Origin: a virus
Virus record (IMG/VR): IMGVR_UViG_3300042549_003104
Span: 1-35,615 of that record
Strand: one strand, 5' to 3'
DNA: 35,615 bases
This document shows positions 912-23,511 of the stretch, piece after piece. The translations under genes were made by a program, and so were the position numbers. The notes beneath the pieces were generated by a model that made no database searches, had not been told where the DNA came from, and saw only the letters and a list, made by a program, of their open reading frames with translations. Within the stretch, counting starts at the first letter, position 1, and each line of letters begins with the position of its first letter.

Positions 912-1402
912 GATTTCGTCAGCGTTGGCGCTGTCCTTGTTCCTGTGGAAGTTTGGCCAGCCATGTCCACGGTGAACGTCGAACCGAACACCGTTATTGC
1001 GTATGTCTCAGATGATGTCTGCGGGTCCGCACACGCACCGGCCAGAACTGCCAGCGTGTAGCCGGCAGCGTTCTCGATGTTCGTGATCTGCGTACCAACA
1101 GAGGAGTCCAGTACCGCTGCTCCGATTTCGGTCGATGACCAGACTTTTGCCAGATATCCGGATGTGCCGGCGATCGTCGCCGTGACATACAGCTCCAGAA
1201 AGTCGTCAATCGACCAGCCTGAGCCAGTTGTGAAAACAGCTTTGTAAAGGCCAGTTTGTGCAGTCGTGCTAACAGTCACAGAAACGCCACTTGCCGATCC
1301 ATTCCGCCACAGAACCGCCGTTGGTGTTGCATCTGCAGCAGTGCCCACGCCTGCAATAGTCGCAGCAAAAAGAATCGTGTATTCAAAATTCAGCTTAATC
1401 AT
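908..1402 (-). CDS. Hypothetical phage structural protein, beta-rich
   Basis: A 164-residue protein dominated by Thr, Ser, Ala, Val and Gly, with alternating beta-strand-like stretches. There is no signal peptide; the N-terminus (Met-Ile-Lys-Leu) leads directly into a beta-like segment. It sits between the LamG-like protein and two more small beta-rich products, and overlaps both neighbours as ATGA. The context suggests a tail-fibre or baseplate accessory component. I do not recognise the family. Confidence 0.6.
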   Translation of the reverse strand: MIKLNFEYTILFAATIAGVGTAADATPTAVLWRNGSASGVSVTVSTTAQTGLYKAVFTTGSGWSIDDFLELYVTATIAGTSGYLAKVWSSTEIGAAVLDSSVGTQITNIENAAGYTLAVLAGACADPQTSSETYAITVFGSTFTVDMAGQTSTGTRTAPTLTKS

Positions 1403-2752: not shown

Positions 2753-2775
2753 CAACAGCGGATCAACGATCCGAT
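2753..2775 (+). repeat. Intergenic palindromic repeat, copy A
   Basis: A copy of the CAACAGCGGAT...ATCCGAT motif between two leftward genes. It includes a perfect GGATC-AAC-GATCC stem. It lies in the opposite orientation to most copies between 6.4 and 8.4 kb. Confidence 0.6.
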
Positions 2776-2781
2776 CCTACT

Positions 2782-3444
2782 TTATTCTCGACCGCCAACC
2801 TGTTCCTGCATCGTCACTTTGACCGGCAGGTTCACGAGTCCCGTCCTCTGCAACAATTCCACGACATTGTTCAGGCCGAAAATTGACAGTGCGAACGCGA
2901 CAAACGTCGCCGCAATCTTTGGATGTCGCTGAACCATTCGAATCGTCCCGAGCACAAATCTATCCTCATCCGTTTGCGTCGTTACCGTCTTAATTTCCGT
3001 CGTCATTGCTTCCAGCCTCTTGGTGATCTCCCCATAGTTTTCCATCGCTTGCGTGAACGCTGCCGCCGTTCCATTTTTTAGAGGCTCCCAGGTACACAGG
3101 CAACATTCAATCGTGCCGCTGAGCGGATATCTCATAACTGTTAATTGACCCCACTCAGGCTTCGCACCTTTGGGGATGTATTGTTTTTTGACTGCATAAC
3201 TTGGATTGTAGGCATCAAGGTTTTTTGCCTCATCGACATCCGCTTGAAGGTTCTTATCCGGCACGCTGATCTGCATCCACGTCAACTGTCGCAACTCATT
3301 CAGCGTGTACTGCGACCACTCACAAAACGCTGCGTTAGCCCACAAGATTCGACCGTCTAAAGTGCTGACCAGCTTCATTGCAGGGCAGTGCTTCACCCAT
3401 GTTCTAAGTTGCTCCTCTTTCGCTTCGTCGATCCACATTCGCAC
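2782..3444 (-). CDS. PAS-domain protein with C-terminal membrane segment
   Basis: A 220-residue protein. Residues 20-120 fit a PAS fold: a Leu-Asp-Gly-Arg-Ile-Leu turn near 29-34, Ala-Asn-Ala-Ala-Phe at 36-40, Tyr46 with Thr-Leu-Asn-Glu-Leu, and a closing beta block with Cys114, Cys115 and Cys117. A charged coiled-coil-like stretch (125-160) leads to a hydrophobic segment at about 177-198 and a short tail. There is no kinase, cyclase or GGDEF output domain. PAS domains sense ligands, redox state or light, or mediate dimerisation. It is last in a run beginning with holin and peptidase genes. GTG at 3444 is favoured by AGGA five bases upstream; ATG at 3438 is the alternative. A link to lysis timing is only inferred. 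Confidence 0.72.
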   Translation of the reverse strand: MRMWIDEAKEEQLRTWVKHCPAMKLVSTLDGRILWANAAFCEWSQYTLNELRQLTWMQISVPDKNLQADVDEAKNLDAYNPSYAVKKQYIPKGAKPEWGQLTVMRYPLSGTIECCLCTWEPLKNGTAAAFTQAMENYGEITKRLEAMTTEIKTVTTQTDEDRFVLGTIRMVQRHPKIAATFVAFALSIFGLNNVVELLQRTGLVNLPVKVTMQEQVGGRE

Positions 3445-4085: not shown

Positions 4086-4834
4086 CGACGTTTCCCAAAC
4101 AGGCCACGTCTTGGTGTTGGGCAAACGCCGCCAGGACAACTGGACCCGCGCGACACAAACTGTACTGGCTTCGATTTCATTGCGACTGGCTTTCCATCAT
4201 GCAGATCAGCGTGAATGTCGGCCATTTGCTGGTGAGTCATACCGTTCGTGTCGATGCCGTGGTCAGCCTTGAGATGTGCAGATGTTTCCAGAATTGTTGG
4301 ATTCCAATTTCCTTCGACGTTCCACCGCAACCGAGTGCCATCGGATGCAACACGAGAAGAAGAAGTCCCCGGCGTAGCGACTTTGAGAGGGGCTTGTTGG
4401 GTGTTCGCCTTTGCCGGGGACTCGAGGGCAGACTTGATCACCTCCTGACCTTTTGGGGTTTCGGAAACGACCTGAAGTGCATCAACTTTGGCTTTGATCG
4501 CAGCCAATGCGGTTGAGTTTGATTCGACGACCTTCAGGATCTCGTCTGACTTCGTCTCGACCGTTTTGGTCGATGTCAGCAGTGCAGACAGCTCAGCAGC
4601 ACGGGCGGAAACTTCGGGCGAAACAATTTCCGCTGGTGAGCCGCATCCGATCGCGAAGAACAGGCAAAAGCCAGCCAGCATCAGATCGCGAATGGTCGAT
4701 GGGATGTGACCAAGCGGCACTCCACGACCAAACCACCTTGCGACGTTCATGCAATCCCACGCTGACACGGTCCACGTTGCCACAATTTCCACGCCGCCGT
4801 GATTCGGAGCGTCATCTCTGATTGTATTCATCAC
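4082..4834 (-). CDS. Putative lipoprotein, lysis-region
   Basis: 250 residues if read from the GTG at 4834, which overlaps the peptidase stop (GTGA). A hydrophobic stretch (about 52-63) ends in Ala-Ile-Gly-Cys64, a plausible lipobox, so the mature protein may be lipid-anchored at Cys64. The in-frame ATG at 4681 would put this signal at the exact N-terminus and may be the true or a second start. Beyond it lie a helical, coiled-coil-like part (about 70-135), a soluble domain, and a basic tail with two Cys in a Cys-Pro-Gly-Gly-Val-Cys-Pro motif. A phage-encoded lipoprotein beside a holin recalls outer-membrane spanin subunits, but it is longer than usual. Confidence 0.6.
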   Translation of the reverse strand: MMNTIRDDAPNHGGVEIVATWTVSAWDCMNVARWFGRGVPLGHIPSTIRDLMLAGFCLFFAIGCGSPAEIVSPEVSARAAELSALLTSTKTVETKSDEILKVVESNSTALAAIKAKVDALQVVSETPKGQEVIKSALESPAKANTQQAPLKVATPGTSSSRVASDGTRLRWNVEGNWNPTILETSAHLKADHGIDTNGMTHQQMADIHADLHDGKPVAMKSKPVQFVSRGSSCPGGVCPTPRRGLFGKRR

Positions 4835-6480: not shown

Positions 6481-6491
6481 TCCCTTAGCGA

Positions 6492-6516
6492 CTATCGGAG
6501 TTCCGATCCTCTGTTC
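6492..6516 (-). repeat. Intergenic palindromic repeat, copy B
   Basis: On the minus strand it reads GAACAGAGGATC, then a short middle, then TCCGATAG. It contains the palindrome ATCGGA-GT-TCCGAT. It starts next to the TAA stop of the HAD-like gene. Confidence 0.65.
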
Positions 6517-6517
6517 A

Positions 6518-6805
6518 TTAGTGCCCCAGAGCACATTTCCGAGGATCGTCGTCGATCCAGACATCAACCTTGATTCCACGGGCCTTCATAAACTCGACTT
6601 TGCTGCCGAGGCCAGTGAAGTATGTGTGCAGGTCAATGCCGTGCATTCGCATCCATTCCGCCAGCGTGTCGCGATTTTCGTCCGTGTCTCTGCGGGCAGT
6701 GACACACACAACGTGATGGCCAATAGCCCGACAAGCGTCGACGAATCCACGCCATAGGGCTGCGTCGAGCGTTAGTGTTTCGTCAAAATCGATTGCAATT
6801 CTCAT
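6518..6805 (-). CDS. HAD-superfamily phosphatase-like protein
   Basis: 95 residues. The N-terminus carries the HAD nucleophile motif Asp-Phe-Asp-Glu-Thr (residues 6-10), motif II Cys-Val-Thr-Ala-Arg is near 34-38, and the acidic motif Trp-Ile-Asp-Asp-Asp-Pro is near the C-terminus. The protein has no cap domain and is short for the family. Small phage HAD proteins of this kind may remove phosphate from nucleotides or nucleic-acid ends; the substrate here is unknown. ATG at 6805 was chosen because GGGAG stands five bases upstream; GTG at 6811 is possible. It forms a single-gene cassette between two repeat copies. Confidence 0.82.
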   Translation of the reverse strand: MRIAIDFDETLTLDAALWRGFVDACRAIGHHVVCVTARRDTDENRDTLAEWMRMHGIDLHTYFTGLGSKVEFMKARGIKVDVWIDDDPRKCALGH

Positions 6806-6819
6806 CGCCACTCCCGCGC

Positions 6820-6837
6820 CTATCGGACGTGCTGTTC
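6820..6837 (-). repeat. Intergenic palindromic repeat, short copy C
   Basis: A shortened copy, minus strand GAACAGC...GTCCGATAG, lying between the stop of one small gene and the GGGAG site of the HAD-like gene. Confidence 0.55.
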
Positions 6838-6841
6838 GCGT

Positions 6842-7135
6842 TTACTTTTTTGCTTTTGCTGCTTGTTTGGCCCGATACCTTGCGTCTGACTCACGCCAAA
6901 ACGCGTCAACCTCTTCTCTTCTTTTTTGCTCTGCAGCCTCTTTTACGATCGCTGATTCGGTGTTTTTTATGACCCATTCCAGAGCGCCTATCAAATGGCC
7001 GAAATGCATCATTGCATCCTGCCACTGAATTCGCTCACTTAGCGAACTGCCAGCAGCCGCCAACGTTTCGGCATCGTCAGCCGATCTCTGCACTGTCGTC
7101 AGTAATTTTTGTATTGCTCCAACGTCGCGTTCCAT
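6842..7135 (-). CDS. Hypothetical helical protein
   Basis: 97 residues, predicted almost wholly helical, with a very charged C-terminal third rich in Lys, Arg, Glu and Ala. It has no membrane segment or known motif. AGGA lies eight bases before ATG. Repeat copies flank it on both sides, so it is one of the accessory single-gene cassettes. Confidence 0.6.
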   Translation of the reverse strand: MERDVGAIQKLLTTVQRSADDAETLAAAGSSLSERIQWQDAMMHFGHLIGALEWVIKNTESAIVKEAAEQKRREEVDAFWRESDARYRAKQAAKAKK

Positions 7136-7148
7136 GCTTTTCGTCCTG

Positions 7149-7173
7149 CTATCGGATTCCGGATCCGCTGTTC
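7149..7173 (-). repeat. Intergenic palindromic repeat, copy D
   Basis: The clearest copy. The minus strand reads GAACAGCGGATCCGGAATCC, then GATAG. It begins within the TGA stop of the upstream gene and ends beside the AGGA site of the next. Confidence 0.7.
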
Positions 7174-7366
7174 ATTTCGTCGGCAGCTTCCGGTACGTGC
7201 AAACCACTTTGAAACGTTTATGCTGATGGTATTCGGCTTTTTTGTCAGTCATCCATAGCCCCGGCATTTTCCCCATCCATCCTGAGCCGATGGTTTCGAT
7301 TCCAACGTCGCACATAGCCTCACCAGCACTTGCTGCCTTCACAAAATACACTTGCCGTTTTGACAT
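7172..7366 (-). CDS. Hypothetical small protein
   Basis: 64 residues, basic at both ends, with no recognisable domain. The sequence alternates in a way that suggests a small alpha/beta fold. ATG at 7366 has AGAGG seven bases upstream; the GTG at 7372 would leave no room for that site. Its TGA stop forms the first bases of repeat copy D. Confidence 0.55.
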   Translation of the reverse strand: MSKRQVYFVKAASAGEAMCDVGIETIGSGWMGKMPGLWMTDKKAEYHQHKRFKVVCTYRKLPTK

Positions 7367-7386
7367 CGTCACGCCTCTCGAAATGG

Positions 7387-7566
7387 TTATGCGCTGTTGC
7401 TCTCATGAATTTCGAATAGCACTTTCGGACCACGGACTGTAAGCATCGCAAGGCAATTTGCATGGCTCTGGAACCATGTCGCTAATGGCTTCGTGTATTC
7501 GCCGTCGACGCGGACGTGTTCGATAACCAGCTTCGCGAATTCAACGATGGCCTGTTCTCGTGTCAC
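7387..7566 (-). CDS. Hypothetical small protein
   Basis: A 59-residue frame from GTG at 7566 to TAA at 7387, filling an otherwise empty gap between two genes. AGGAAGG stands seven bases before the GTG. The product begins Met-Thr-Arg-Glu-Gln-Ala and is mostly helical with one Cys. No family is recognised. It fits the tight leftward gene chain. Confidence 0.6.
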   Translation of the reverse strand: MTREQAIVEFAKLVIEHVRVDGEYTKPLATWFQSHANCLAMLTVRGPKVLFEIHESNSA

Positions 7567-7584
7567 CGCAGCACCTTCCTGTTT

Positions 7585-7800
7585 TTACTTCGATTCATAT
7601 TCAGACCGTGCTTCTTTCATCCGAGCGGACAGCGCACACAAGGCTTCCGCATTATCGACGATCACATTCCTGATTTCCTTCCTGCCGGATTCTTGGACAA
7701 GCTTGGAAACCAGCTCACAGAATGCAGCCACAGCGAACACAACCAGAATCGCCGCGATTCCTCCAGCCGTGAACATAAACCCGTCGATAAACTGCTGCAC
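7585..7800 (-). CDS. Small membrane protein with C-terminal helix
   Basis: 71 residues with one hydrophobic segment (about 9-28), then an amphipathic charged helix rich in Glu, Lys and Arg. The GTG start at 7800 is supported by GGGAG seven bases upstream. It could be a minor membrane-targeted accessory protein; there is no basis for a more specific role. Confidence 0.6.
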   Translation of the reverse strand: MQQFIDGFMFTAGGIAAILVVFAVAAFCELVSKLVQESGRKEIRNVIVDNAEALCALSARMKEARSEYESK

Positions 7801-7818
7801 AAAAGCACTCCCAAAAGA

Positions 7819-7843
7819 CTAGCGGATGCAATTACCTCTGTTC
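7819..7843 (-). repeat. Intergenic palindromic repeat, copy E
   Basis: Minus strand GAACAGAGG...GCATCCGCTAG. It starts within the TGA stop of the upstream gene and lies before the GGGAG site of the next gene. Confidence 0.6.
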
Positions 7844-8264
7844 AAAACGACCCGACATCCGTAGCCCAATCCGCCGCAACATCCAGCTCGCGTCGAATAC
7901 CCTCCAGACTCACCCACAGATCATGCTCAGTCTTGCAGATCCCGCCGTCAGCCATTCCAGCCTGCACGATGGCCTCCAGTTTCTTTTCTGCCTGCTGCAC
8001 GGCATTCAGCAAATGTGGGGCACACGCAATCAGCACCACGTTCCGCCACCGATCGCCGTCCTCGCCATCGCGGATAATATTGCTGTCGCCGTACTCATCC
8101 GGCCCGCATGGAATGCAGTCGATTTCGCAAACCTGCACAACCATGTGCGGACTGCCTGCGATAGGGATATGAATCACCGCCGTCGCCTCGTCAGCCTCCG
8201 GGTGATCCCTGTCGATCCTGCATTCCCACGACATCATTCCGTTTTCCAATAGCCTGCTTTTCAT
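7842..8264 (-). CDS. Hypothetical phage protein
   Basis: 140 residues, acidic, with several Cys and His. A segment Ala-Pro-His-Leu-Leu-Asn-Ala-Val near residue 81 is like many small phage accessory proteins with an Ala-Pro-x-Leu-Leu helix. No enzymatic motif is seen. GAGGT lies about four bases before ATG. The 93-base upstream gap holds two repeat copies. Confidence 0.6.
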   Translation of the reverse strand: MKSRLLENGMMSWECRIDRDHPEADEATAVIHIPIAGSPHMVVQVCEIDCIPCGPDEYGDSNIIRDGEDGDRWRNVVLIACAPHLLNAVQQAEKKLEAIVQAGMADGGICKTEHDLWVSLEGIRRELDVAADWATDVGSF

Positions 8265-8277
8265 GTGGACCTCAAAT

Positions 8278-8300
8278 CAACAGCGGAGTCATATCCGCCG
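8278..8300 (+). repeat. Intergenic palindromic repeat, copy G
   Basis: Plus strand CAACAGCGGAGTCATATCCG, so it is inverted relative to copies B-F. Confidence 0.5.
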
Positions 8301-8343
8301 CATAAACCCTGTAAATTCGAACCGTCAAGCCATTCCTGACAGT

Positions 8344-8370
8344 TCAACAGCGGATGTTCATTCCTCTGTT
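8344..8370 (-). repeat. Intergenic palindromic repeat, copy F
   Basis: Minus strand CAACAGAGGAATGAACATCC, then GCTGTTG. It overlaps the last codons and stop of the ribbon-helix-helix-like gene. Confidence 0.55.
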
Positions 8371-8525
8371 GCTTGCTCGGCCTTAATAGCCCTCTCAAGC
8401 CGTTCGCGTTTTCTTTTCTTCCAGCTCTCGACAATCTTCTTGACCGCCTGCGAAACTCGCACGTTGACGTTCACAAGAACCTCAGTCTTCTTTTTCTTCG
8501 GTCGGCCTTTTGGTTTTTTCTTCAT
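8358..8525 (-). CDS. Small ribbon-helix-helix-like DNA-binding protein
   Basis: 55 residues. The first 14 are highly basic with Gly-Arg-Pro-Lys-Lys, an AT-hook-like core. A beta-like Val-Leu-Val-Asn-Val-Asn-Val-Arg-Val stretch follows, then two charged helices, the pattern of a small ribbon-helix-helix repressor. ATG at 8525 begins this product; an upstream frame to 8606 runs back through the promoter. The promoter just ahead is bracketed by two GTATAC sites, so autoregulation is plausible. DNA binding is inferred from composition and layout, not from a confirmed family match. Confidence 0.62.
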   Translation of the reverse strand: MKKKPKGRPKKKKTEVLVNVNVRVSQAVKKIVESWKKRKRERLERAIKAEQATEE

Positions 8526-8534
8526 TGTGGTTTT

Positions 8535-8588
8535 CCGTATACGAATAATAGCGGGCGAATTGCTCGCGTCAACATTTATTGTATACGG
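8535..8588. promoter_or_regulatory. Paired GTATAC operator-like sites
   Basis: CCGTATACG at 8535-8543 and GTATACGG at 8581-8588 form an inverted pair on the two sides of a promoter. The first sits just after the -10 box, the second just before the -35 box. The neighbouring small DNA-binding protein is the likely ligand. Confidence 0.5.
8545..8572 (-). promoter_or_regulatory. Candidate promoter for the accessory-gene block
   Basis: Minus strand TTGACG (8572-8567) and TATTAT (8550-8545) with 16 bp between them, each matching consensus at five of six positions. It lies just after the helicase gene and ahead of the small DNA-binding gene. Confidence 0.6.
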
Positions 8589-8602
8589 CCTGTGCAATAG
8601 GC

Positions 8603-9802
8603 TCAAAGCCTTTTGTCAACCCATGAATATACTGGCTCTTCCGCATCAAATTTAAACCGTGGTCCATCCAGCTTCAGCGTAATCTCACCAGTCCCGCCAC
8701 CTCGCTGTTTCGCAACCTGCAGCAATGTTTCCGGCCCGTCATCCGAAGCACTCAGCAGCAACACGATATCCGCATCCTGCTCAATAGATCCTGACTCTCG
8801 CAGGTCTGCCAGTGTCGGCTTTCCCTTCTTGGTCGATTCGCGATTCAACTGGCTGCCAACAATGACCGGCTTCTGCAGGTCCAATGCCATCCGCTTTAGC
8901 CGCCTGCTAATCGTGGCAATCTGCCGTTCTCGGCTGTCGTGCTTGTTTCCGGGCACTTCCATCAGTTGGAGATAGTCAATCACGATCAGGCCAATTTTGT
9001 ACCGACGACACGCAACCCGCACGAGGCTTTGAATTGTCCCGAGATCAGAAGTTGAATCGATAAAATACAGCGGCAACTGGTGCAACCTGTCGAAGTCAAT
9101 GGTCCTGCTCAATCTGTCAATCAGTTCTTCTTTCATCATCTCAAGGCTGACGATCAGGACGCCCGAGCCTTGCTCCGCGACTTTGGCCCCGATCTGGACC
9201 ATCAGTACTGACTTTCCGGCACCTGGACGGCCGCCAATGACGATCGACTGACCATCCCGAAGTCCGCCCCTCAATGTGTCGTCAAGTGCTTTTATTCCCG
9301 TCCGATGAATTGCCCGAGGATTTGCCTTGCGTTCCTGCAGCCCTTTGACGGCATCCGCCACCGTCTTGATTTCGTCTTTCCGGCCTCGCTGGATCTGGTC
9401 AAGCTTTGAGATATACCCGTCGATGACTTCCTGATTGACAATCGGTTCGTGTGCCAGTTGCTCGCCAAGAATGTGTGCGTCGTCGGTCGATGCGTGCTGT
9501 TGCAGTGCCGCGCAATAATGGTCGATGTGAGCTGATTCCCACGATCCTGCCCTGAGGTCGATCAGCAGTTCCAGCCCGATCGACTGCGGAACCCTGCCCG
9601 CCTGCGTCATGTGTTCCAGCACCAAAACTGGGTCGAATGCCTTCCCAACTTCTGCCATCGCTTCCAGAGCGTTCCAGACGGCCCGCAGATCGCTGGTGGA
9701 AAAATCCATTGGGTTTATCTGCGATGCAATCCTGTCGACCGCGTCAGGGCCGTCGAATGCTGCACAGATGATTGCTCGTTCAATTGCTTGTCTTGATTCC
9801 AC
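8603..9802 (-). CDS. dnaB: Replicative DNA helicase, DnaB family
   Basis: 399 residues. The N-terminal helical DnaB domain covers about 1-110 and the RecA-like motor about 165-395. Visible motifs are Walker A Gly-Arg-Pro-Gly-Ala-Gly-Lys-Ser (191-198), Walker B Leu-Ile-Val-Ile-Asp-Tyr-Leu-Gln-Leu (272-280), Gln-Leu-Asn-Arg (318-321) and Leu-Arg-Glu-Ser-Gly-Ser-Ile (334-340). It unwinds DNA at the phage fork and probably recruits host primase and polymerase, since no phage polymerase is present. The likely start is GTG at 9802, inside the end of the initiator gene. Overlap with that gene supports a replication operon. Confidence 0.95.
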   Translation of the reverse strand: MESRQAIERAIICAAFDGPDAVDRIASQINPMDFSTSDLRAVWNALEAMAEVGKAFDPVLVLEHMTQAGRVPQSIGLELLIDLRAGSWESAHIDHYCAALQQHASTDDAHILGEQLAHEPIVNQEVIDGYISKLDQIQRGRKDEIKTVADAVKGLQERKANPRAIHRTGIKALDDTLRGGLRDGQSIVIGGRPGAGKSVLMVQIGAKVAEQGSGVLIVSLEMMKEELIDRLSRTIDFDRLHQLPLYFIDSTSDLGTIQSLVRVACRRYKIGLIVIDYLQLMEVPGNKHDSRERQIATISRRLKRMALDLQKPVIVGSQLNRESTKKGKPTLADLRESGSIEQDADIVLLLSASDDGPETLLQVAKQRGGGTGEITLKLDGPRFKFDAEEPVYSWVDKRL

Positions 9803-10760
9803 TGCGAATGTCTTTCAGGTTTTCGTTGAACAGTTTTTCCAGCGTCCCGAGTTCAGCCCCATGAGCGTTTGCAACTCTTGCGGTTCCTGTTCTCTTCATC
9901 GCCTCAAACAGTTCGTCTCCGAGTTCTTTTTGCCGCCTACTCCAATCCTCTGGATACTGGCGGGTGATGTTCAATGCTCGTATCCACTCGCTGCTTGATG
10001 CTGCTTGCGAGGCCGGTTGCGCGGTCTCCCGCAGGCTCACCCAGCCCTCGGCCATCGCCTTTTCGGCCTGGGCAAGGAACTTCTCAGGGCCGAGTCTTCC
10101 AGCCTGTCTCCACCACGCCTGCTCCTGCGGACTGTTTCGCGGTGGAATCTTTTCGTGCTTGCCTTTGTTCTCTAAATGCTGGAACCACTCACCGACGACT
10201 TTCATCACTTCTGGGGTGTTTAGCTTTTCCGGAATCTGAATTTCTTCGCCCGGAGAATAAGAAGGAGTAGGCAAAGGCACAGGGATAGAAGGTTCCCCCT
10301 GTTTATCCCCTGTTTGTACCCCACATTGTACCCTCTTTATACCCTCGATTATCCCCTGTTTATACCCGTCATCGTACCCCTGTTTATACCCATTTTCGGG
10401 ATTCACAAACGTACACGCTTCTTCGATCGGCGTATCTGAGATTTGCTCATATCCATCTGGAATCGTGACGTAATACTCACCGGATGTCCTCTTGCCGTCG
10501 CCTGCGTAAATCAGCCAGCCGGAATCAATTGCCTTCCGTCTCGCTTTGTCGAACTGATCCCACTTCGTAAATCCAAGCGTTTCAATCAACTGCGAGTTCC
10601 AAAACTTTGCAGCCCCACGATATCGCATCGCGTCCTCAGTATGAGCCACAACGACCAAAAGGCTGAAGGCATCTCGTCCAATGTCAGCAGCAACGGCGGC
10701 CTTGTGTAAAAGCCTGACGAACTTGTGAGCAAAAAAGGGCTCGCGTTTTGGGTAATTCAT
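9780..10760 (-). CDS. Replication initiator, winged-helix, with origin repeats inside the gene
   Basis: 326 residues. The N-terminal 110 residues look like a winged-helix domain of phage O/RepA-type initiators (helices around 15-60, a Trp-Asn-Ser-Gln-Leu-Ile-Glu-Thr helix near 54-61). The middle, about 124-155, is low-complexity Gly-Tyr-Lys-Gln repeats encoded by the iteron cluster. A Pro-rich linker (about 160-185) joins a helical C-terminal part with a Trp-Trp-Arg-Gln motif near 217-220, probably the helicase-loading part. It lies immediately before dnaB. The layout copies that of lambda O, whose gene contains the origin. Function is inferred from domain pattern and context. Confidence 0.72.
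   Translation of the reverse strand: MNYPKREPFFAHKFVRLLHKAAVAADIGRDAFSLLVVVAHTEDAMRYRGAAKFWNSQLIETLGFTKWDQFDKARRKAIDSGWLIYAGDGKRTSGEYYVTIPDGYEQISDTPIEEACTFVNPENGYKQGYDDGYKQGIIEGIKRVQCGVQTGDKQGEPSIPVPLPTPSYSPGEEIQIPEKLNTPEVMKVVGEWFQHLENKGKHEKIPPRNSPQEQAWWRQAGRLGPEKFLAQAEKAMAEGWVSLRETAQPASQAASSSEWIRALNITRQYPEDWSRRQKELGDELFEAMKRTGTARVANAHGAELGTLEKLFNENLKDIRSGIKTSN
10296..10394. repeat. Iteron cluster, candidate replication origin
   Basis: Nine consecutive units built on CCCCTGTTTATA (plus strand) with 11-12 bp spacing. Three or four units are near perfect and the rest keep the CCC and T-rich parts. Spacing drifts between 11 and 12, so the reading frame shifts from unit to unit. This shows that the repeat is kept as DNA, not as protein. 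It lies within the initiator gene. Confidence 0.65.
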
Positions 10761-11465: not shown

Positions 11466-11671
11466 CGAATTACCTCCGCTCCTTTTACCTTTGCCCGCAG
11501 CAACGCAGGCTTTGTCGGATGTCGCAAAATCACTTCTTCGCAGTCTTCGAACTCTGCAGCCTGCTCAGCATTGAGCGACGCGCGAAGAACAATCAGATAA
11601 TCCACTGGCTTGTCTACTGGCCTTTGCGCTGGCTCGTGGTTTCCGTCCGGGCCGATTGTTACGCTGCTCAC
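11462..11671 (-). CDS. Hypothetical small protein
   Basis: 69 residues. A Pro-rich polar start is followed by a compact part with Val-Asp-Tyr-Leu-Ile-Val-Leu and Glu-Glu-Val-Ile-Leu, suggesting a beta-alpha-beta fold. No family is recognised. It overlaps both neighbours by four bases. Confidence 0.55.
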   Translation of the reverse strand: MSSVTIGPDGNHEPAQRPVDKPVDYLIVLRASLNAEQAAEFEDCEEVILRHPTKPALLRAKVKGAEVIR

Positions 11672-12624
11672 GCCGCACCGCCCTTCAGCTCTGCCTGCCT
11701 TGCCTGATAGAACGGACGCACCAACGACAGCACCTGCTGGCTCACACTGGCTTTCATTGCCGCCAGTTCCTTGCCAGCCTCTTCCAGTTTTTCATGAGTC
11801 TTTGCCGCTGCGATCTCATTCCAGACGGTTTCGACGAACGTCAACTGGTCCGGATTGTCGCTGAGAATCTTGCGAATGCGTGCCAGTGATGGTTCGTGCT
11901 TTTCGGTTTCGGATTGCTCAGGCTCCGATACCACTGCCGGTTCCTCAATCAGCATCGTCTGCGGGATCACTTCCACGTCGTCCGCTTGGTCATCATTCAG
12001 AATCGGGCTGACCTTGTTCCACAAAGCCTTGAGAAGCTGCCTGCGGCCTTTTGCAGTGATTCCCGCCACATTGTCCGACTCATAGCCAGGCAGGCCCAAT
12101 GCCATTGCCCCGAAGAATTCCACGGCATATTCCTTGCCGCCGTAGGAGCAAGATGCCTTTCCTTCGACACGCCAGATTTTCTTCCCTGACTTTCCAAGCG
12201 GAACAAACTCCGGATGCCCGACCGAAACCTCTGGCACAATCCCAAGGTGAGCAAACAGCGTCCTGAATCCCGCCTCCTTCGTGTAAAGCTTTCCGCCGCC
12301 CTTGCCGCCGAAAACGGCGAACTGATCGTCACCAGGACAAAACCCGCTGAGGATGGCAATCGCACAGACCCTGATGCGATCTTCGTCCGTTGGATTGTTG
12401 GCCAGTTCGACCATGTTGATTCGCGGGTCAGTCATCCGCAGCAGACGGGCTTTGATGTTTTCGTCCGTCAGCGATTCGATCAGTTGCACTCGAGCCTCGG
12501 CCATCGCAAACGCCGCACTGATTCGCGAGCCATTCTTTGCGGCGTCAATCAGTTCGTTCCGACTTGCGTCAATTCGCGTGAGCCAGTCTGAAACTGTGTT
12601 GGTTGTCGTAGTGATCGCGCCCAT
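11668..12624 (-). CDS. Possible RecT-like single-strand annealing protein
   Basis: 318 residues. The core (about 85-215) has a Gly-Gly-Lys-Leu-Tyr-Thr-Lys-Glu-Ala-Gly-Phe-Arg segment (about 109-120), similar in layout to the tool-strand region of RecT/Red-beta relatives, then a cysteine near Ser-Cys-Ser-Tyr-Gly, and a Lys/Arg-rich helix Ala-Lys-Gly-Arg-Arg-Gln-Leu (about 191-197). The C-terminal third is acidic and helical. Phage annealing proteins pair single strands during recombination. The neighbouring NinG-like nuclease supports a recombination role. The match is weak and by pattern only. AGGT lies nine bases before ATG. Confidence 0.45.
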   Translation of the reverse strand: MGAITTTTNTVSDWLTRIDASRNELIDAAKNGSRISAAFAMAEARVQLIESLTDENIKARLLRMTDPRINMVELANNPTDEDRIRVCAIAILSGFCPGDDQFAVFGGKGGGKLYTKEAGFRTLFAHLGIVPEVSVGHPEFVPLGKSGKKIWRVEGKASCSYGGKEYAVEFFGAMALGLPGYESDNVAGITAKGRRQLLKALWNKVSPILNDDQADDVEVIPQTMLIEEPAVVSEPEQSETEKHEPSLARIRKILSDNPDQLTFVETVWNEIAAAKTHEKLEEAGKELAAMKASVSQQVLSLVRPFYQARQAELKGGAA

Positions 12625-12938
12625 TTTCGTATTACCTCGATTTCTGAAAGAATTGTTTCGTCCGTTAAATGTTCAGCGAGCAACTGCACCCGCTGTTCTG
12701 ATTTGTGCTTCTCAATGTCTCGCTTCGCTTTTTCGATCCGCTCACGCCACGCCGGCACGGTGATTGGCTTCGATTCCTGTTCGTCTCTGTATCTCGCAAA
12801 CGGATCGATTTCGTCATAATCGCCGTATCCCATCCAGAACGAATCTCCAGCGGTTGCACCGTAGGTTCTTTCGTTCATCACACGCCGATAGACGTGGTCC
12901 CTGTATGCGTTGTCACCAGTAAACAAAACCGCGATCAC
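12549..12938 (-). CDS. Hypothetical protein
   Basis: 129 residues from GTG at 12938, which overlaps the NinG stop as GTGA. An acidic, aromatic-rich middle (Tyr-Gly-Asp-Tyr-Asp-Glu) is followed by a long charged helix. The last 76 bases overlap the start of the next gene in another frame, an unusually long overlap for this genome, so the C-terminus may be shorter in related phages. No family is recognised. Confidence 0.5.
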   Translation of the reverse strand: MIAVLFTGDNAYRDHVYRRVMNERTYGATAGDSFWMGYGDYDEIDPFARYRDEQESKPITVPAWRERIEKAKRDIEKHKSEQRVQLLAEHLTDETILSEIEVIRKWARSLRQPTQFQTGSRELTQVGTN

Positions 12939-13408
12939 TTGACCGGCAGACGCTTCAACGCATCCTTCTGCATGTCCAGAAACTGAATCTTCTTCTCTGC
13001 CAGTTGCTCGCATGTCCATTTCAGTTTCTGCTCCCCGCAAATCTTCAAATCGTCGACAGCTTCTTTGCCATACTTCGCGACCATGTATTCCTCATACCGT
13101 GCCGCGTTTCCGCCTTTGTGATCGTTGCACGACGCACACTGAGGATGGCAGTTAATAAAGTGAAACACGGTCGCATGTCGCGCCCTACTGACAAAATGCC
13201 CAGCGTTCATGCCTGCATCATTCCACGGCAAAACCTTGCTGCATGTGACGCAGGTACAGTTTCCGTTTTCGTCCGATTCCAGCATTCTCACGAGACGCTG
13301 GAACGCTCTGGCAACGTCGTTAATGCGGTTCTGCGGAGCCATCGCGGCTAGACGAGTCGCCATCTTCTCGACCTTGTTTCTCCGCTTTTCTGCTGCTGTC
13401 AGTTTCAT
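12935..13408 (-). CDS. ninG: NinG/Rap-type recombination endonuclease
   Basis: 157 residues with the pattern of lambda NinG (Rap), a Holliday-junction and D-loop nuclease. A basic N-terminus leads to Cys53-x2-Cys56, Trp62-Asn63, Gly-His71-Phe, a later Cys91-x2-Cys94-Asn95, and a Gly-Asn-Ala-Ala-Arg-Tyr-Glu-Glu-Tyr motif after 100. This is a zinc-supported HNH-like core. It would resolve recombination intermediates and works well with an annealing protein, possibly the gene two places downstream. The ATG has GGGGGCAGGG just upstream and overlaps the previous stop (ATGA). Confidence 0.85.
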   Translation of the reverse strand: MKLTAAEKRRNKVEKMATRLAAMAPQNRINDVARAFQRLVRMLESDENGNCTCVTCSKVLPWNDAGMNAGHFVSRARHATVFHFINCHPQCASCNDHKGGNAARYEEYMVAKYGKEAVDDLKICGEQKLKWTCEQLAEKKIQFLDMQKDALKRLPVK

Positions 13409-13653
13409 CCCTGCCCCCTCAATACGCCCCTACCGCTTGGAAGCATCTTTGTCGAGCATTCCCGTATCATCGGAGCCCTATATATGCCCTTGTTTTCCGG
13501 ATGGTCCGGACGCTCCAACCTGATTTGCTCAGCAAGTCCCATCGTGGTTTCCGTGCCCCAGATTTCCTCTAGCGTCGGATCTCGTGTCACTGGCTTGTGA
13601 CCTGTCGGCATGTGCATCCGTTTCGATTTCTTGCCAGCCTTGCGTCGTGTCAT
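13405..13653 (-). CDS. Hypothetical basic protein
   Basis: 82 residues with a strongly basic N-terminus (Arg, Lys in the first 15), suggesting contact with nucleic acid. The C-terminal half has a conserved-looking Met-Leu-Pro-Ser-Gly-Arg-Gly segment. No family is recognised. It is overlapped by four bases by csrA upstream and ninG downstream, so the three are probably translated together. Confidence 0.55.
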   Translation of the reverse strand: MTRRKAGKKSKRMHMPTGHKPVTRDPTLEEIWGTETTMGLAEQIRLERPDHPENKGIYRAPMIRECSTKMLPSGRGVLRGQG

Positions 13654-13913
13654 TGCGGCTTTCTCCTCATCAGCTCGCCTGGCAATCGCTCGCCAATTCG
13701 AATAACCGTGGGCTTCACCGGATTCGCTTCCGGATTGAATCCGGTTTCCATGATCGCATCATGAATTTCTTTGCGATCGATTTTGACGTTTTGAGACGCT
13801 GTGATTCCGAGCTTTACCTGTCGACCAGTCATCTCGATCGTTTTGACGATGATTGTTTCATCGCCAACGGTCATGATGATTTCCTGTCCATAATTCCTTC
13901 CGAGCACCAACAT
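13650..13913 (-). CDS. csrA: CsrA/RsmA-family RNA-binding translational regulator
   Basis: 87 residues. Residues 1-58 follow CsrA closely: Met-Leu-Val-Leu-Gly-Arg6, a Gly-Asp-Glu strand, Lys-Leu-Gly-Ile at 34-37 and Val-Lys-Ile-Asp-Arg47-Lys-Glu-Ile. Arg6 and Arg47 occupy the positions of the two arginines known to bind GGA motifs in RNA. A 28-residue C-terminal extension is longer than the usual 61-residue form. CsrA homodimers bind GGA in hairpin loops or near ribosome-binding sites and change translation or mRNA stability. AAAGGA stands seven bases before ATG. The leader carries three compound hairpins, which suggests regulation at RNA level. Confidence 0.88.
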   Translation of the reverse strand: MLVLGRNYGQEIIMTVGDETIIVKTIEMTGRQVKLGITASQNVKIDRKEIHDAIMETGFNPEANPVKPTVIRIGERLPGELMRRKPQ

Positions 13914-13943: not shown

Positions 13944-14150
13944 GTGAGCGGTACATGGCGTCTGTGCACGCCATCAGTGCTACCTGGACCGCTCACGGGA
14001 GAACACAAAACCTGCGAACAGTCTCGGCGTGACTGCTAAAAAACGCCGACCCTTGGCGACTGTTCGCAGGAGGACAAATCAGAGCCTGACCAGCCTTAAT
14101 GGCTTGCGGGGGCCAGCCGTTGGCTTCTTCTCCAATCGGTCAGGCTCTGA
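13944..14150. ncRNA. Three tandem compound hairpins upstream of csrA
   Basis: Three stem-in-stem elements. One: 13944-13952 with 13988-13996 (9 bp), inner 13955-13961 with 13968-13974. Two: 14011-14023 with 14058-14070 (13 bp), inner 14024-14030 with 14043-14049. Three: 14079-14091 with 14138-14150 (13 bp), enclosing two AGCC/GGCT hairpins. Plus-strand linkers are GGGAGAACACAAAA, AGGACAAA and GGGAGTAGAA. On the minus strand this is the csrA leader, with short U-rich stretches after each stem. On the plus strand it would be a GGA-bearing antisense RNA. The rest of the 273-base gap shows no gene. Confidence 0.6.
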
Positions 14151-14735: not shown

Positions 14736-16133
14736 CTACGCCTCCTGCAGTGTTTGTTTCTCTGACGACTCACCAACCTGCTGACTCGTCAACACCGTTG
14801 ACAGTGCCTCAACAAACCCGCTGAAGTCTCGGAACAGTTTCGAGCGTTCCTCTCGATTCATTTCCTCAAACGTGATCAATGTCATGCAGGCGTCAGCCAA
14901 TGCGTCTTCGTTCTCTGACTTCAGGTGATAGGCCAACCGTGGATGCTCACTGTTGAGATAAATCACAGCACCGGGAATATCGACCTCTCCCATCAAGCCG
15001 TCATGTCGTGGTCGCCACTCCATTCGAACGCGGCCAGCGAGACGACTTGCAACACGATTGCCGGGCTGAGTCTTTCCTGTTGGGTTTCGCTTGCGTCCAG
15101 AATCCTTTGGCTTTACTCCGCCAGTTGCGTTTGTGGCTGGATCTCGTTTCTCCATCACGCCACTTCCAAGCATCAATCGAAGCTTTTCAGTGACAGAGCT
15201 CTCGAGTGCTGTATTGCGAAGATGCCTAGCCTGTGCTGAAGATGCTTTAAGAATTTCTTCGCATCTGTAAAACATTGCTTCTGCGAGCTCGTCGCTGTCT
15301 GTATCCACGAGCTCCGTTTTATTTCTGGACAGCATCCATTCCGCATCAAGTGTCAGCACGCCGCAAATTCGTGATGTTGAATAGCCGCCAGATCCAAACG
15401 ATGTGTTGCAAATCATGCGGTGAGCATGGCAAACGTTAAATCCGTTTTTTTCGTTGACTGAGTCCATTGGGACTATTCCAGCCACCAAATGAACGCGCTT
15501 TCCGTTGACCTCAAACCGGTCGTTTACTTGCTGACTCAAGTCAGGAAGCTGCCACGGACGAACGCAAATCGGCGGCTTCTTACTTCGAAAAATCCTAATC
15601 TGCCTTCCGTGTAGAATTGCAGGGGCAAACATGTAGCCAAGAGTAGCTGCTAGTGAATCAAACTCGGGAGGCTTTCGCGTGATATCATTAAAAACCAGTT
15701 GCGTGCCGCTTCCTGTCGAATCAGTGGGCACCGGCGTAATGATCTTCCATGATTTCGACCTGCTTAATGCCTCCCAGTCGATATCAGCTTTGTGCAACTT
15801 CGCATTCTTTGTTGTGCGAATCTTCAGCCTTCCCCACAACCAACATGCCGCGTCTTTGAGCCCGACTCCATACCTGCCTAGCTTTGTTGACGACTGCTTG
15901 TAATGAGCTCCAATCGTCAGCATCTTTTCAATGTTGTCGCAACCTGCACCATCGTCGCTGACCATCATCGACTTGCCATTGAATTCGATGTCAACACGCG
16001 TTGCCCCAGCATCCAGAGAGTTGTCGACGAGCTCGCCGATCACTGTTGCCCAATTGCATGGATTCGATCGCATCGAAACCAAAATTGAAGGCGGGATCTG
16101 GCCCAAATCGATTTCTTGCTCGTTTGTCATCAT
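14736..16133 (-). CDS. GHKL-family ATPase (MORC/MutL/Hsp90-like)
   Basis: 465 residues. The N-terminal ATPase has all GHKL boxes: Glu34 with Asp37-Asn38 (N-box), Asp60-Asp61-Gly62-Ala-Gly64 (G1), and Gly86-Arg-Tyr-Gly89-Val-Gly91-Leu-Lys93 (G2). A second alpha/beta part to about 300 resembles a transducer domain. A Lys/Gly/Pro-rich linker (about 335-375) separates a C-terminal domain. Such proteins clamp or compact DNA or couple ATP to a partner nuclease. No kinase domain is present. The ATG overlaps the ParB-like gene's stop as ATGA, so the two are probably made together. A role in DNA handling, defence or counter-defence is open. Confidence 0.82.
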   Translation of the reverse strand: MMTNEQEIDLGQIPPSILVSMRSNPCNWATVIGELVDNSLDAGATRVDIEFNGKSMMVSDDGAGCDNIEKMLTIGAHYKQSSTKLGRYGVGLKDAACWLWGRLKIRTTKNAKLHKADIDWEALSRSKSWKIITPVPTDSTGSGTQLVFNDITRKPPEFDSLAATLGYMFAPAILHGRQIRIFRSKKPPICVRPWQLPDLSQQVNDRFEVNGKRVHLVAGIVPMDSVNEKNGFNVCHAHRMICNTSFGSGGYSTSRICGVLTLDAEWMLSRNKTELVDTDSDELAEAMFYRCEEILKASSAQARHLRNTALESSVTEKLRLMLGSGVMEKRDPATNATGGVKPKDSGRKRNPTGKTQPGNRVASRLAGRVRMEWRPRHDGLMGEVDIPGAVIYLNSEHPRLAYHLKSENEDALADACMTLITFEEMNREERSKLFRDFSGFVEALSTVLTSQQVGESSEKQTLQEA

Positions 16134-17629: not shown

Positions 17630-17659
17630 AAACGTTCGCAACTCATGTCATGAACGTTT
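17630..17659. promoter_or_regulatory. Inverted repeat around the integrase start
   Basis: AAACGTTC (17630-17637) and GAACGTTT (17652-17659) with a 14-base spacer that contains the ATG at 17650. It could be an arm-type integrase site or an operator. Confidence 0.4.
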
Positions 17660-18603
17660 TGTTGCCGAAATATAGGGTGACTTACCACAGCCCCTCTTCG
17701 CCAGTGAATGGAGTCACGTCACTGGATCAGCCTACGATGAACATCGTTGAACATGCACGGGAATACTGTGCCCGCAAACAGATATCAAAAACGCCCATTT
17801 ACGCCTGTCAGCGAGTCGCTGAAGTGATTGGCGAGATCGAAGCCAACCAGGTGACTCAGCAGCACGTCGAACAGTATGTGCAGCAGGCCCGGAAAGACCG
17901 CGTCCCAGAATGGACGATCAAAGGTGCGGTCAAGGATCTGCGGACGATCGTGATTGATGCCGGTGGCCCGGTGTTGCTCAACACTGTGAAGAAGCCAAAG
18001 CCGGACCCGAAGCCCTGCGAGATTTCCGACATTGACACAATCTGGCAATGGCTGGCTCCTTGGTCCTGCCAATTGATTGTGCTGACATACTGGTGTGGCA
18101 TTAGGCTGGAAGATGCCATTCGGCTGCAACTCAAGGTAGATCCGTCTTGGCGGTCAATCACATGGGAAGCAAACAAGACCGGCCACAGGCACAGGATTCC
18201 AGCACCGAAATGGCTGAGCAAATGGTTGCAACCTGTAAGGCTGCCTTACAAGTCCAGCAACGACCATGCGCAGGTCATCGTCAGGGGCGAACTCGACCGC
18301 GTCTGCACGGTCGCAGGCATTCCGCGAATTCTGCCCAGCACCATCCGTGACCGGGGAATCACCGAATGGAGCAAGGTGTCATCCGATGCCGGGGCTTTGC
18401 TGCATGGGCATGGCTTGGGCACTAGGGACCACTACGTTCCGGCCTTGGAGATCCTGACGGCCGCAATGGACAGGGTGCGAGTTCCAACCGCGTTTGGGGC
18501 TGCTCAGTCGTCAGAAGACAGCCTTTTGTCAGCCTATCGCCGTCTCGACCCGTCCGCTCAGGGGCTTGTCAGCATGACTGCGGAACGGCTTGCGGCGGGG
18601 TGA
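17650..18603 (+). CDS. int: Tyrosine recombinase, integrase
   Basis: 317 residues. An N-terminal SAM-like core-binding part (about 30-115) precedes the catalytic domain. Arg152 sits in Gly-Ile-Arg-Leu-Glu-Asp, Lys176 in the beta-hairpin, Arg233 in Ser-Thr-Ile-Arg-Asp-Arg, His254 in Leu-His-Gly-His-Gly-Leu-Gly, and the nucleophile Tyr262 eight residues on. The usual first His of the His-x-x-Arg box appears to be Ser230, a divergent feature. It inserts phage DNA at the host tRNA-Leu. No clear ribosome-binding site precedes ATG 17650; ATG 17737 is an alternative. Rightward orientation sets it apart from the rest. Confidence 0.82.
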   Translation: MNVLLPKYRVTYHSPSSPVNGVTSLDQPTMNIVEHAREYCARKQISKTPIYACQRVAEVIGEIEANQVTQQHVEQYVQQARKDRVPEWTIKGAVKDLRTIVIDAGGPVLLNTVKKPKPDPKPCEISDIDTIWQWLAPWSCQLIVLTYWCGIRLEDAIRLQLKVDPSWRSITWEANKTGHRHRIPAPKWLSKWLQPVRLPYKSSNDHAQVIVRGELDRVCTVAGIPRILPSTIRDRGITEWSKVSSDAGALLHGHGLGTRDHYVPALEILTAAMDRVRVPTAFGAAQSSEDSLLSAYRRLDPSAQGLVSMTAERLAAG

Positions 18604-21986: not shown

Positions 21987-22645
21987 TAACTTCCGCTCCC
22001 GCTTCCAGTACTGCAAGGGTCAAGCCGCTGCGACATTGCCTCCCCGAAGAACCATATTCGATTCCATTCGGTAATCTTTAGACCGTCGACGGGACAACAT
22101 TCAATTTTGTTTGGAATTTCTGTGACACATCGAAGCCGCCGCCCAACGATCACAGTCCAGCCCTGCCACGTTCCGCCGCTGCCTGAACCTGAACCAGAGC
22201 CGGAACCGCTGCCAGAAGTTCCGCAGGTCGGCATCTTGATCAGTCCGACTGGCCCCGCCTTGTAGCCCGCTGGGACCAAAGCCGTCACACTTCCGAGGCT
22301 ATCGCAGAGACTCAGGTCCATGTCGAGAAATGAGCAGTCGCCACCGGAGCCACTTCCGGAACCAGAGCCAGAGCCGCTGCTAAACCCATCAGAACATGGC
22401 CCGCAGAGAAACGGAACGAACTCTTCGAGGGATGCCCCGCGATAGAGCGAGACCGAAAGAATGCTGTCGTCTTTGCCGGTGTCTTGGCCGAGAGTACCCC
22501 ACGCGACGCGTAACGATCCAGCTTCTTTCTGTTGCCATCGTGCTCGATGCGGCTTTTCATTTACAACGCGACGCGCTACCTTGCGGGCTATGCCCTCATA
22601 CTGTTTGTAGCCGTCTGCATTAAAGCCGATGGACACGTCTGTCAT
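21986..22645 (-). CDS. Tail protein with Gly-Ser linkers
   Basis: 219 residues with three Gly-Ser runs: about 90-100, 145-157 and the last ten residues. Between them lie compact Cys-containing segments (Cys-Ser-Phe-Leu-Asp-Met; Pro-Thr-Cys-Gly-Thr). The design is of small domains on flexible linkers. It overlaps the previous gene as ATGA. Function unknown; fibre, adhesin or baseplate is plausible. Confidence 0.62.
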   Translation of the reverse strand: MTDVSIGFNADGYKQYEGIARKVARRVVNEKPHRARWQQKEAGSLRVAWGTLGQDTGKDDSILSVSLYRGASLEEFVPFLCGPCSDGFSSGSGSGSGSGSGGDCSFLDMDLSLCDSLGSVTALVPAGYKAGPVGLIKMPTCGTSGSGSGSGSGSGSGGTWQGWTVIVGRRLRCVTEIPNKIECCPVDGLKITEWNRIWFFGEAMSQRLDPCSTGSGSGS

Positions 22646-23511
22646 GTAAGCGGCAGTGCTGAAAAGTCTTTGGACTCGTAAACAACGTCGACTCGATACT
22701 GAGCATTTGCTGGTGATGGATTTTCTAGGGCTCTACCGGATCCATCCAACGGAACAGGTGCCGCTGGTAGTTCATCGTCGCCAGGGTTCCGGATGTTGAT
22801 TAGTTCCACCCCGCCAGAACCACTGCCGGAGCCAGAACCTGAACCGTCTGACAGTTCCCTGAACCCAGCATCCAGTTGCCGCGACTGCCAGCCCTGTTTT
22901 TGCAGGTGAATCGAAAACGTAACAGTTCGAAACGAGGTTCCGTTTCGTGATTGCGCCCGGGTGACCGTGATGTTTTGCATCTTGGCAAGCCCAGCACCAA
23001 CAGTGACACCATCGACCACGAATGATGACGAATTCACTGCGTCTTGGTATGTCATGATCCAGACTGGCACGGATGCAAGATTTTTCGAAATCGTGACGTA
23101 CGGCCGCGAATCATCGATCATGATGGGCGGATCAAACGGGTCGCCGGCACTGTTCAGAATCGCTTGCCCGGCATAGTTCGTGACAGCCGGTTTTTGAAAC
23201 TGTTCGTACCCCCAAGTGATTTCAGCTGGGTCATCTGTTGGATCTTCAGCCAGTTCGCGTTCCGTCGAATACTCGGCCGTGACAGTCCAGCCCTTCCACG
23301 GGTCGGATGGATCAACCTGCAGCGTCGTGCACCATGCTCCAGCGTCGTCAGGGTGCACCTCGCCAATAACCGGCAATGACGCATGTGATCCGACATGATA
23401 GGCTCGCTCAGTCTTTGCTGATGTGACCAGCTTGAATGACCGCGTATAGCTGCGAGCCCCTTTTGTGTTCGTCGCTGGAGCGTGGTTTTCGCCAAGGTAT
23501 GTGATTGTCAT
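22642..23511 (-). CDS. Tail-tip or baseplate protein with Gly-Ser linker
   Basis: 289 residues with a beta-rich N-terminal part (about 1-220) and one Gly-Ser run near 225-236, then a short C-terminal domain. It follows the tape measure protein by one gene, in the position of distal-tail or baseplate proteins. Pro-Ser-Asp-Pro-Trp and Gly-Trp-Thr-Val motifs recur. The family is not recognised. Confidence 0.62.
   Translation of the reverse strand: MTITYLGENHAPATNTKGARSYTRSFKLVTSAKTERAYHVGSHASLPVIGEVHPDDAGAWCTTLQVDPSDPWKGWTVTAEYSTERELAEDPTDDPAEITWGYEQFQKPAVTNYAGQAILNSAGDPFDPPIMIDDSRPYVTISKNLASVPVWIMTYQDAVNSSSFVVDGVTVGAGLAKMQNITVTRAQSRNGTSFRTVTFSIHLQKQGWQSRQLDAGFRELSDGSGSGSGSGSGGVELINIRNPGDDELPAAPVPLDGSGRALENPSPANAQYRVDVVYESKDFSALPLT

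Follow-up and report, generated by a model that had tools for sequence, protein, structure and literature searches.

What are the short inverted repeats that separate the small genes of the virus record IMGVR_UViG_3300042549_003104, and what do they do there? The window, meaning the whole 35,615-nucleotide (nt) stretch analysed here, is a 35.6-kb virus record with a guanine-cytosine (GC) content of 53% and genes mostly on the minus strand. An earlier note, made from its letters alone, had listed seven copies of a palindromic motif in spacers and had offered a recombination boundary, an mRNA-processing signal or a protein-binding site as possible roles. The element proved to be about 28 bases long and, read on the coding strand, to consist of a left half-site, a core of 7 base pairs (bp) (sometimes 8 bp) and an inverted right half-site. 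Its key property, absent from the earlier note, is a position-specific core which occurs in an invariant order, and the elements are very probably slot-addressed boundaries of DNA exchange.

The motif model was built from 149 hand-curated sites in 26 related phage records (119 unique sites once two outlier records were removed). Relatives were found via the helicase (5 loci), the casA gene at 7842-8264 (9), the terminase (26) and a PAS-domain protein (15), the sets overlapping, and either the complete record or a long stretch of it was examined. The data derive entirely from a single loose group of metagenomic phages, gene calls were simple open reading frame (ORF) predictions and the slot families depend on blastp thresholds. 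In the curated sites the left arm reads [TG][GT]ARCAKMGGW and the reverse-complemented right arm ANCAKMGGA, i.e., one motif in both arms, with a half-site ARCAKMGGW of ~10 bp (arms 10-11 bp). In a leave-one-core-out test a left-arm matrix scored the left arms and the reverse-complemented right arms of curated sites far above random positions. Facing half-sites in the arrays were spaced by 7 bp in 65 pairs and by 8 bp in 17, with at most four pairs at any other spacing from 0 to 30, and half-sites were interchangeable from site to site. Because the half-sites are common to all positions, they point to a shared DNA-binding protein which would bind them, and their fixed 7/8-bp spacing supports the protein-binding option of the earlier note.

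A weight matrix trained only on the relatives gave 7 matches of at least 14 bits in the window, with right ends at 8372, 7844, 7174, 6845, 6517, 2780 and 1123; dinucleotide-shuffled windows had 0.25 each on average and never more than 2. The literal consensus given before, GAACAG[AC]GGAT...ATCCGATAG, fared less well and fits closely only the copies at 6492 and 7149, its first half occurring at chance level when 2 mismatches are allowed. A gapped form of the literal pattern, used in a viral_contigs search, was rejected as too permissive. Chance repeats, or a functionless by-product of common ancestry, could be argued from this near-chance half-motif and from the descent that relates the arrays, but the excess of matrix matches, the replacement of genes and outer arms around persisting cores and the recovery of the same cores in order by an arms-only search (both described below) already contradict such an explanation, which we regard as scarcely credible.

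The sites of the window are as follows.

8345-8372, minus strand: site with core ATGAACA, GCAACAGAGGA-atgaac-ATCCGCTGTTG, 23.9 bits; overlies the stop of ORF 8358-8606, and G001 has the same core in the same place.
8278-8300, minus strand: degenerate site with core around TATGACT and one good (right) arm, CCGCTGTTG; under the matrix threshold, directly upstream of the ribosome-binding site (RBS) of gene 7842-8264; a similar GGCGGATTTGACACCGCTGTTG is present in L007.
7817-7844, minus strand: site with core AATTGCA, TGAACAGAGGT-aattgc-ATCCGCTAGTC, 26.6 bits; the TGA stop of gene 7842-8264 lies within it, and 13 records have this core; window homology to L005 and L008 stops here.
7373-7400, minus strand: weak site with core TAACCAT, GCAACAGCGCA-taacca-TTTCGAGAGGC, where ORF 7387-7566 ends; score 11.6 in the curated listing and 10.4 bits with the relatives-trained matrix, the latter inside the shuffle range; core and rank agree with other records.
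7147-7174, minus strand: site with core TCCGGAA, TGAACAGCGGA-tccgga-ATCCGATAGCA, 23.8 bits; includes the TGA stop of ORF 7172-7372.
6818-6845, minus strand: site with core CAGCACG, GTAAACGCGAA-cagcac-GTCCGATAGGC, 15.0 bits; includes the TAA stop of ORF 6842-7135; core and 38-nt leader recur ahead of an unrelated gene in L005.
6490-6517, minus strand: site with core TCGGAAC, TGAACAGAGGA-tcggaa-CTCCGATAGTC, 27.0 bits; immediately follows the stop of ORF 6518-6811 and is the final site ahead of the holin-like gene.
2753-2780, minus strand: site E7 with core TCGTTGA, GTAGGATCGGA-tcgttg-ATCCGCTGTTG, 22.8 bits; between ORFs 2782-3444 and 2178-2735.
1096-1123, minus strand: site with core ACTGGAC, GGAGCAGCGGT-actgga-CTCCTCTGTTG, 23.8 bits; within ORF 908-1402; core in 20 records; window homology to G004 starts here (window 1117).

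The genes which most of these sites border are the following.

6518-8264, minus strand: row of variable cassette genes, mostly without a Pfam family (6518-6811, 6842-7135, 7172-7372, 7387-7566, 7585-7800 and 7842-8264); ORF 6518-6811 is HAD-like by sequence and lies in a hypothetical phage family.
7842-8264, minus strand: casA, cassette gene of 140 aa, function not assigned; protein 91-99% identical in nine other phage records.

All seven places named before carry the element, the copy at 8278 in a degenerate form below threshold; two sites had been overlooked, the weak one at 7373-7400 and the strong one at 1096-1123 inside ORF 908-1402. All curated sites fit the coding orientation, and every window copy, including that at 2753, fits the model on the coding (minus) strand. 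The copies had been described as lying in both orientations, an impression that arose because the arms mirror each other, and as having self-complementary cores; it is the half-sites that are complementary to each other, and the cores lack self-complementarity. In relatives that cover the region from the helicase to the holin-like gene, nearly every gene of the small-gene row is followed by such an element. Most copies sit between a stop codon and the next RBS, and for most of them the earlier description, which put them within or next to the stop codon and ahead of the RBS that follows, was correct. At intergenic sites the arm GTAAACGCGG supplies the upstream stop TAA; the site within ORF 908-1402 uses it in another frame, is translated through in frame and has the same arm variants as other sites.

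Inverted arms that adjoin stop codons could form RNA hairpins that end transcription, mark processing sites or insulate the translation of neighbouring cistrons, and many single copies are foldable, e.g., TGAGCAGCGGAgtggaacATCCGCTGCTCA in L009. However, the arms of one site matched each other less than arms re-dealt among sites (identity z -3.1, GU-allowed pairing z -2.6; within the array only, -2.6 and -2.4, respectively), and the compensatory pairing expected of an intrinsic terminator or RNA processing hairpin was not found. The site listing showed no regular T-run after the sites, and the same element occurs inside an ORF. A hairpin role is therefore very unlikely, and the mRNA-processing option of the earlier note is disfavoured by arms without covariation (z about -3) and by the site within an ORF. 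We also considered a CsrA-like phage protein as binder of the arms, which contain GGA, and rejected it: 38% of left arms carry GGT, and G001, G003 and G004 yielded no member of the gene family. Separately, window 13650-13913 encodes a small-protein family, CsrA-like by eye in G007 and G010 (MLVLRRSVSEEIIITVGEE...), which is a possible phage-encoded RNA-binding regulator.

The cores behaved quite differently from the arms. At each position the core was near-invariant (AATTGCA 13/13, ACTTGTA 11/11, ACTGGAC 20/20, ATAACTG 5/5), with single-base variants in GTGGAACA, TCGGAAC, ATTCCGT, TAACCAT and CTGGTAC and three forms at E7; variants of one position were merged by hand. Cores of different positions matched at 1.82 of 7 bases, as expected by chance. 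Among sites with non-homologous flanks the arms matched about equally well for the same or different cores, and sequence outside the arms was at background. If the cores are read as recombinase overlaps, those of the same position would suit partner sites, being near-identical despite differing flanks, and other cores were unrelated. No core occurred twice within any record. The order began ATGAAC or GTGGAAC, AATTGC, ACTTGT, ATTCCG, TGTCGAT, (GTGTGGT, GTTGGT, TCTGCA, CTTGTA) and continued TGAGCG, ATCGTG, TCGTGG, CTGGTA, GTGACGC, ATAACT, TAACCA, TCCGGA, CAGCAC, TCGGAA, E7, ACTGGA. Of the ordered core pairs in 16 de-duplicated records, among them L212 and L215 as out-of-sample members, 386 were concordant and none discordant (null mean 117.5 discordant, minimum 86), and the order graph was acyclic. 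G017, the source of all three discordances in an initial analysis, was rotated before this test since its contig starts elsewhere on the gene map. Shared ancestry of the arrays contributes to the conserved order, but ancestry alone leaves unexplained the replacement of genes and outer arms around the cores.

A core-free pattern, TGARCAGMGGW-N7-TCCKCTGYTC, matched seven contigs, of which two were already known, four were new and one (L211) was unrelated. The new contigs L212, L215, L216 and L217 carry known cores in the known order, the L212 array reading GTGGAAC>AATTGC>ATTCCG>CTGGTA>GTGACGC>ATAACT>TCGGAA. Because L212, L216 and L217 have most of this array in common, the search amounts to about two independent confirmations. 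The match in L211, an otherwise unrelated 47.7-kb contig, is a lone perfect palindrome, TGAGCAGCGGA-N6-TTCCGCTGCTC, at 4090-4240, ~50-80 nt past a tRNA-like 3' fragment at which ARAGORN called no tRNA. There is no array there, and it was not counted as a member of the system.

If a regulator of phage or host origin bound these sites throughout the accessory operon, with recombination as a by-product, this would account for dyad half-sites at gene borders, most of them between a stop codon and the next RBS. Binding of a regulator has been suggested for the extended start-associated sequences (ESAS) of Cluster K mycobacteriophages, 17-bp inverted repeats with 4-13-bp spacers which lie upstream of, and are tied to, a 13-bp start-associated repeat, which are also tied to a gene family, and for which RNA pairing likewise has little support (PMC3203893). 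Both are imperfect inverted repeats with a variable spacer at the borders of phage accessory genes, for which RNA pairing is unsupported; the present elements differ in having 10-11-bp arms and a 7/8-bp spacer and in being tied to the slot rather than the gene. The core stays with its slot while gene families change and move, and no 13-bp GGGATAGGAGCCC start-codon element of the ESAS kind was seen in the site listings. A regulator would have no need of a different, strictly conserved, non-repeated 7-bp spacer per position in a fixed order, nor would it readily explain the site inside an ORF, and we consider this explanation unlikely.

Gene content differed among the relatives between matching boundaries. 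Between AATTGC and ACTTGT most records have different gene sets, and G001 has no gene there; the slot GTGGAAC>AATTGC is likewise vacant in G002 and L212. Families F10 and F22 (both methyltransferase-like by eye), F11, F21, F24, F26, F27, F31 and F32 were each seen in two or more slots. The casA flank upstream of AATTGC (86-99.8% identical DNA) is joined to nine downstream flanks; conversely, at TCGGAA a single downstream (holin-side) flank meets nine different upstream flanks, and E7 gave one complete four-gamete set. Breakpoints of pairwise homology concentrated on the sites, 21% falling no more than 20 nt from a site centre compared with 4% when the sites were rotated (maximum 7%). Arms that travel with a gene between slots are weak evidence where arms match by motif anyway, and a clearer case is the F18 cassette, which has the same outer right arm and leader (CGATCGTGACTCATTACC) after core TGTCGAT in G006 and after ATTCCG in G009. 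That exchange takes place at the sites is well supported, and so, strongly, is the suggestion in the earlier note of a recombination boundary that allows cassettes to shuffle.

In the mechanism that we propose, the sites would split part of the phage genome into numbered slots. The half-sites (ARCAKMGGW) could be recognised by a dimeric DNA-binding protein, with the 7- or 8-bp core as slot address. When related phages share a cell, sites with the same core would cross over and so replace the gene of the slot, usually together with adjoining arm sequence; sites with different cores would be unable to cross over, and the intervening genes and their order would be kept. Cores that match between partners and differ from all others would account for the lack of deletions as well as for the conserved order, and core identity is presumably needed for exchange. 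The likeliest chemistry would be conservative and of the tyrosine-recombinase type, in which partners match in the 6-8-bp overlap, and the enzyme may come from the host, a helper element or an unrecognised phage protein. We place catalysis by a site-specific recombinase at even or slightly worse, and the statement as a whole, slot-addressed exchange sites served by a conservative site-specific recombinase, falls just short of an even chance.

Several observations weigh against such an enzyme acting at the cores. The arms were initially gathered by eye, which makes the arm statistics partly circular, the independent checks being the relatives-trained matrix scan and the arms-only collection search. 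Profile searches with PF00589 and PF00239 found no recombinase in 17 records, some of them fragments and the sensitivity of the models being limited; PF00589 also misses the integrase-like ORF of the window at 17650-18603. This ORF, on the opposite strand, matched phrog_1 (1.9e-6) and keeps tyrosine-recombinase-like residues by eye, its structure prediction was poor (mean predicted local distance difference test score, pLDDT, 49), and tblastn relatives were present only in G014, G017 and G020 and absent from G004 and G006-G010. No recombinase common to the site-bearing phages was found. As many as 79% of the breakpoints lie away from the sites, as is expected if genes also diverge and recombine internally, and at TCGGAA the right arm varies while the downstream gene side is constant, so that not all crossovers fall in the core. 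In the early region breakpoints occur at gene borders without half-sites (24% compared with 9% expected), and genes for homologous recombination are present, namely NinG/Rap in the window, RuvC-like in G004, RusA in G010 and, in G006, G007 and G009, a family called Sak4-like from a single fragment with a weak match (E 0.011).

The main rival, given these recombination genes and the border breakpoints without half-sites, is that phage enzymes carry out ordinary homologous recombination or anneal strands at short conserved linkers. The sites would then be the only homology at each junction, the cores would persist since crossovers must fall there, and the half-sites would have some other DNA-binding role; boundary-targeted homologous recombination is an accepted model for some phages (PMC3233612). 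Although this would explain exchange and order, it leaves unexplained why both arms at all positions carry a single half-site motif at a fixed 7/8-bp spacing, even within an ORF, and identity between unrelated flanks extends only about the core and inner arms, which is short for such a route. We consider it a serious possibility, at clearly less than even likelihood.

Different Holliday-junction enzymes were noted in the early region of these phages: RuvC-like at 22305-22799 in G004, RusA-like at 9179-9643 in G010 and NinG/Rap at 12935-13408 in the window. The G004 and G010 ORFs both begin VFDANA..W.RR.EGAGM and then diverge. A 318-aa protein at window 11668-12624 belongs to a family with two forms, in which the first two-thirds differ and the last ~75 residues are almost identical. 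The pattern resembles the swap of an internal module, and the protein may act in recombination or replication; there was no Pfam or PHROG match, and the structure model was poor (mean pLDDT 56).

How, then, does the proposed exchange by a recombinase compare with known systems? Tyrosine-recombinase core sites of the lambda Int type have inverted core sites of ~9 bp around a 7-bp overlap, and in such systems the match of the overlaps decides the partner sites. The arrangement seen here is that of such a core site, for which two inverted half-sites of about 9-13 bp around a 6-8-bp overlap are expected, and overlap identity would explain partner choice, but there are about 20 overlaps in one genome group, and no arm-type sites or common integrase were found. 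Integrons resemble the array in having promoterless single-gene cassettes separated by recombination sites. Their attC sites, with RYYYAAC / GTTRRRY cores, are structured single strands that recombine irrespective of order through the IntI integrase, whereas here the order is fixed and the cores are unique; PF00589 gave no match, and so no integrase of the IntI type, in the 17 records, subject to the limits given above.

The pdif/dif modules of Acinetobacter plasmids have a ~28-bp site at each end, in which the arms are conserved and the spacer varies; two sites recombine according to the identity of their spacers, and the plasmids borrow the host recombinase XerCD (PMC13141974). Site length, conserved arms, variable spacers and bounded gene modules are points of likeness. 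However, the XerC (ATTTCGTATAA) and XerD (TTATGTTAAAT) arms are unrelated to ARCAKMGGW, and 11-bp arms of that kind were not found; the pdif spacer is 6 bp rather than 7-8 bp; and pdif sites alternate in orientation, giving inversions and deletions, whereas all sites here point one way and the order is fixed. Engineered assembly with phiC31 integrase and orthogonal overlaps allows ordered cassette assembly and one-by-one replacement (PMC3936721). It likewise reuses one recognition site with different overlaps, but it is an engineered serine integrase acting on attP/attB pairs; the array here is natural, and PF00239 found no serine recombinase in the 17 records. It is tempting, if somewhat short of an even bet, to see here a natural multi-site array in which one recombinase-type half-site is reused at ~20 positions with orthogonal 7-8-bp overlaps as slot addresses, and in which accessory genes are swapped freely, through a recombinase that the site-bearing phages do not visibly encode, while order and completeness are kept. 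PMC3233612 also cites boundary sequences that are conserved in lambdoid phages; these too are short, lie between phage genes and were proposed to target recombination and yield mosaicism. In the present group phages that otherwise differ keep a short sequence at a given gene border, and breakpoints fall there; the account in PMC3233612 mentions no shared half-sites or address code.

Whether phage mosaicism arises from boundary-targeted recombination or from random joining with selection is a long-standing question, as PMC3233612 sets out. The boundaries described here are explicit, common to differing phages and carry a readable address, so that the origin of mosaicism becomes directly testable. 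If a recombinase acts on them, they would represent in nature what orthogonal-overlap assembly achieves by engineering, and a multiplex recombination tool might be drawn from them. The sites also offer a simple means of finding and bounding accessory cassettes, several of them methyltransferase-like, in metagenomic phages.

The site-bearing phages differ in their terminases and replication modules. No credible site was found in G020, a more distant relative with terminase and holin-like homologues, so the system is not universal across the wider phage group. The window gave no DNA match to named phages, casA and the integrase-like protein likewise had none among named phages, and the terminase is only about 30% identical to those of unrelated phages. 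Searches of GTDB genomes with alignments of the terminase and the helicase found no match.

The remaining main genes of the window are listed here.

33448-35241: terminase.
31803-33437: portal.
29501-30943: capsid.
23729-25252: tape measure.
8603-9802: DnaB-like helicase.

Beside the helicase gene, within ORF 9780-10760, window 10296-10398 contains an array of 11-12-bp iteron-like repeats (CCCCTGTTTATACCC...), a possible replication origin. Window 14736-16133 encodes a 465-aa protein with a histidine-kinase/gyrase/HSP90-type ATPase domain (PF13589, 3.9e-20), which is unusual for a small phage. The intergenic stretch at window 14007-14078 is conserved, being 92% identical over 73 nt in G004, and in it a long inverted repeat, CTGCGAACAGTC...GACTGTTCGCAG, encloses a second stem; it is a candidate non-coding RNA or terminator.

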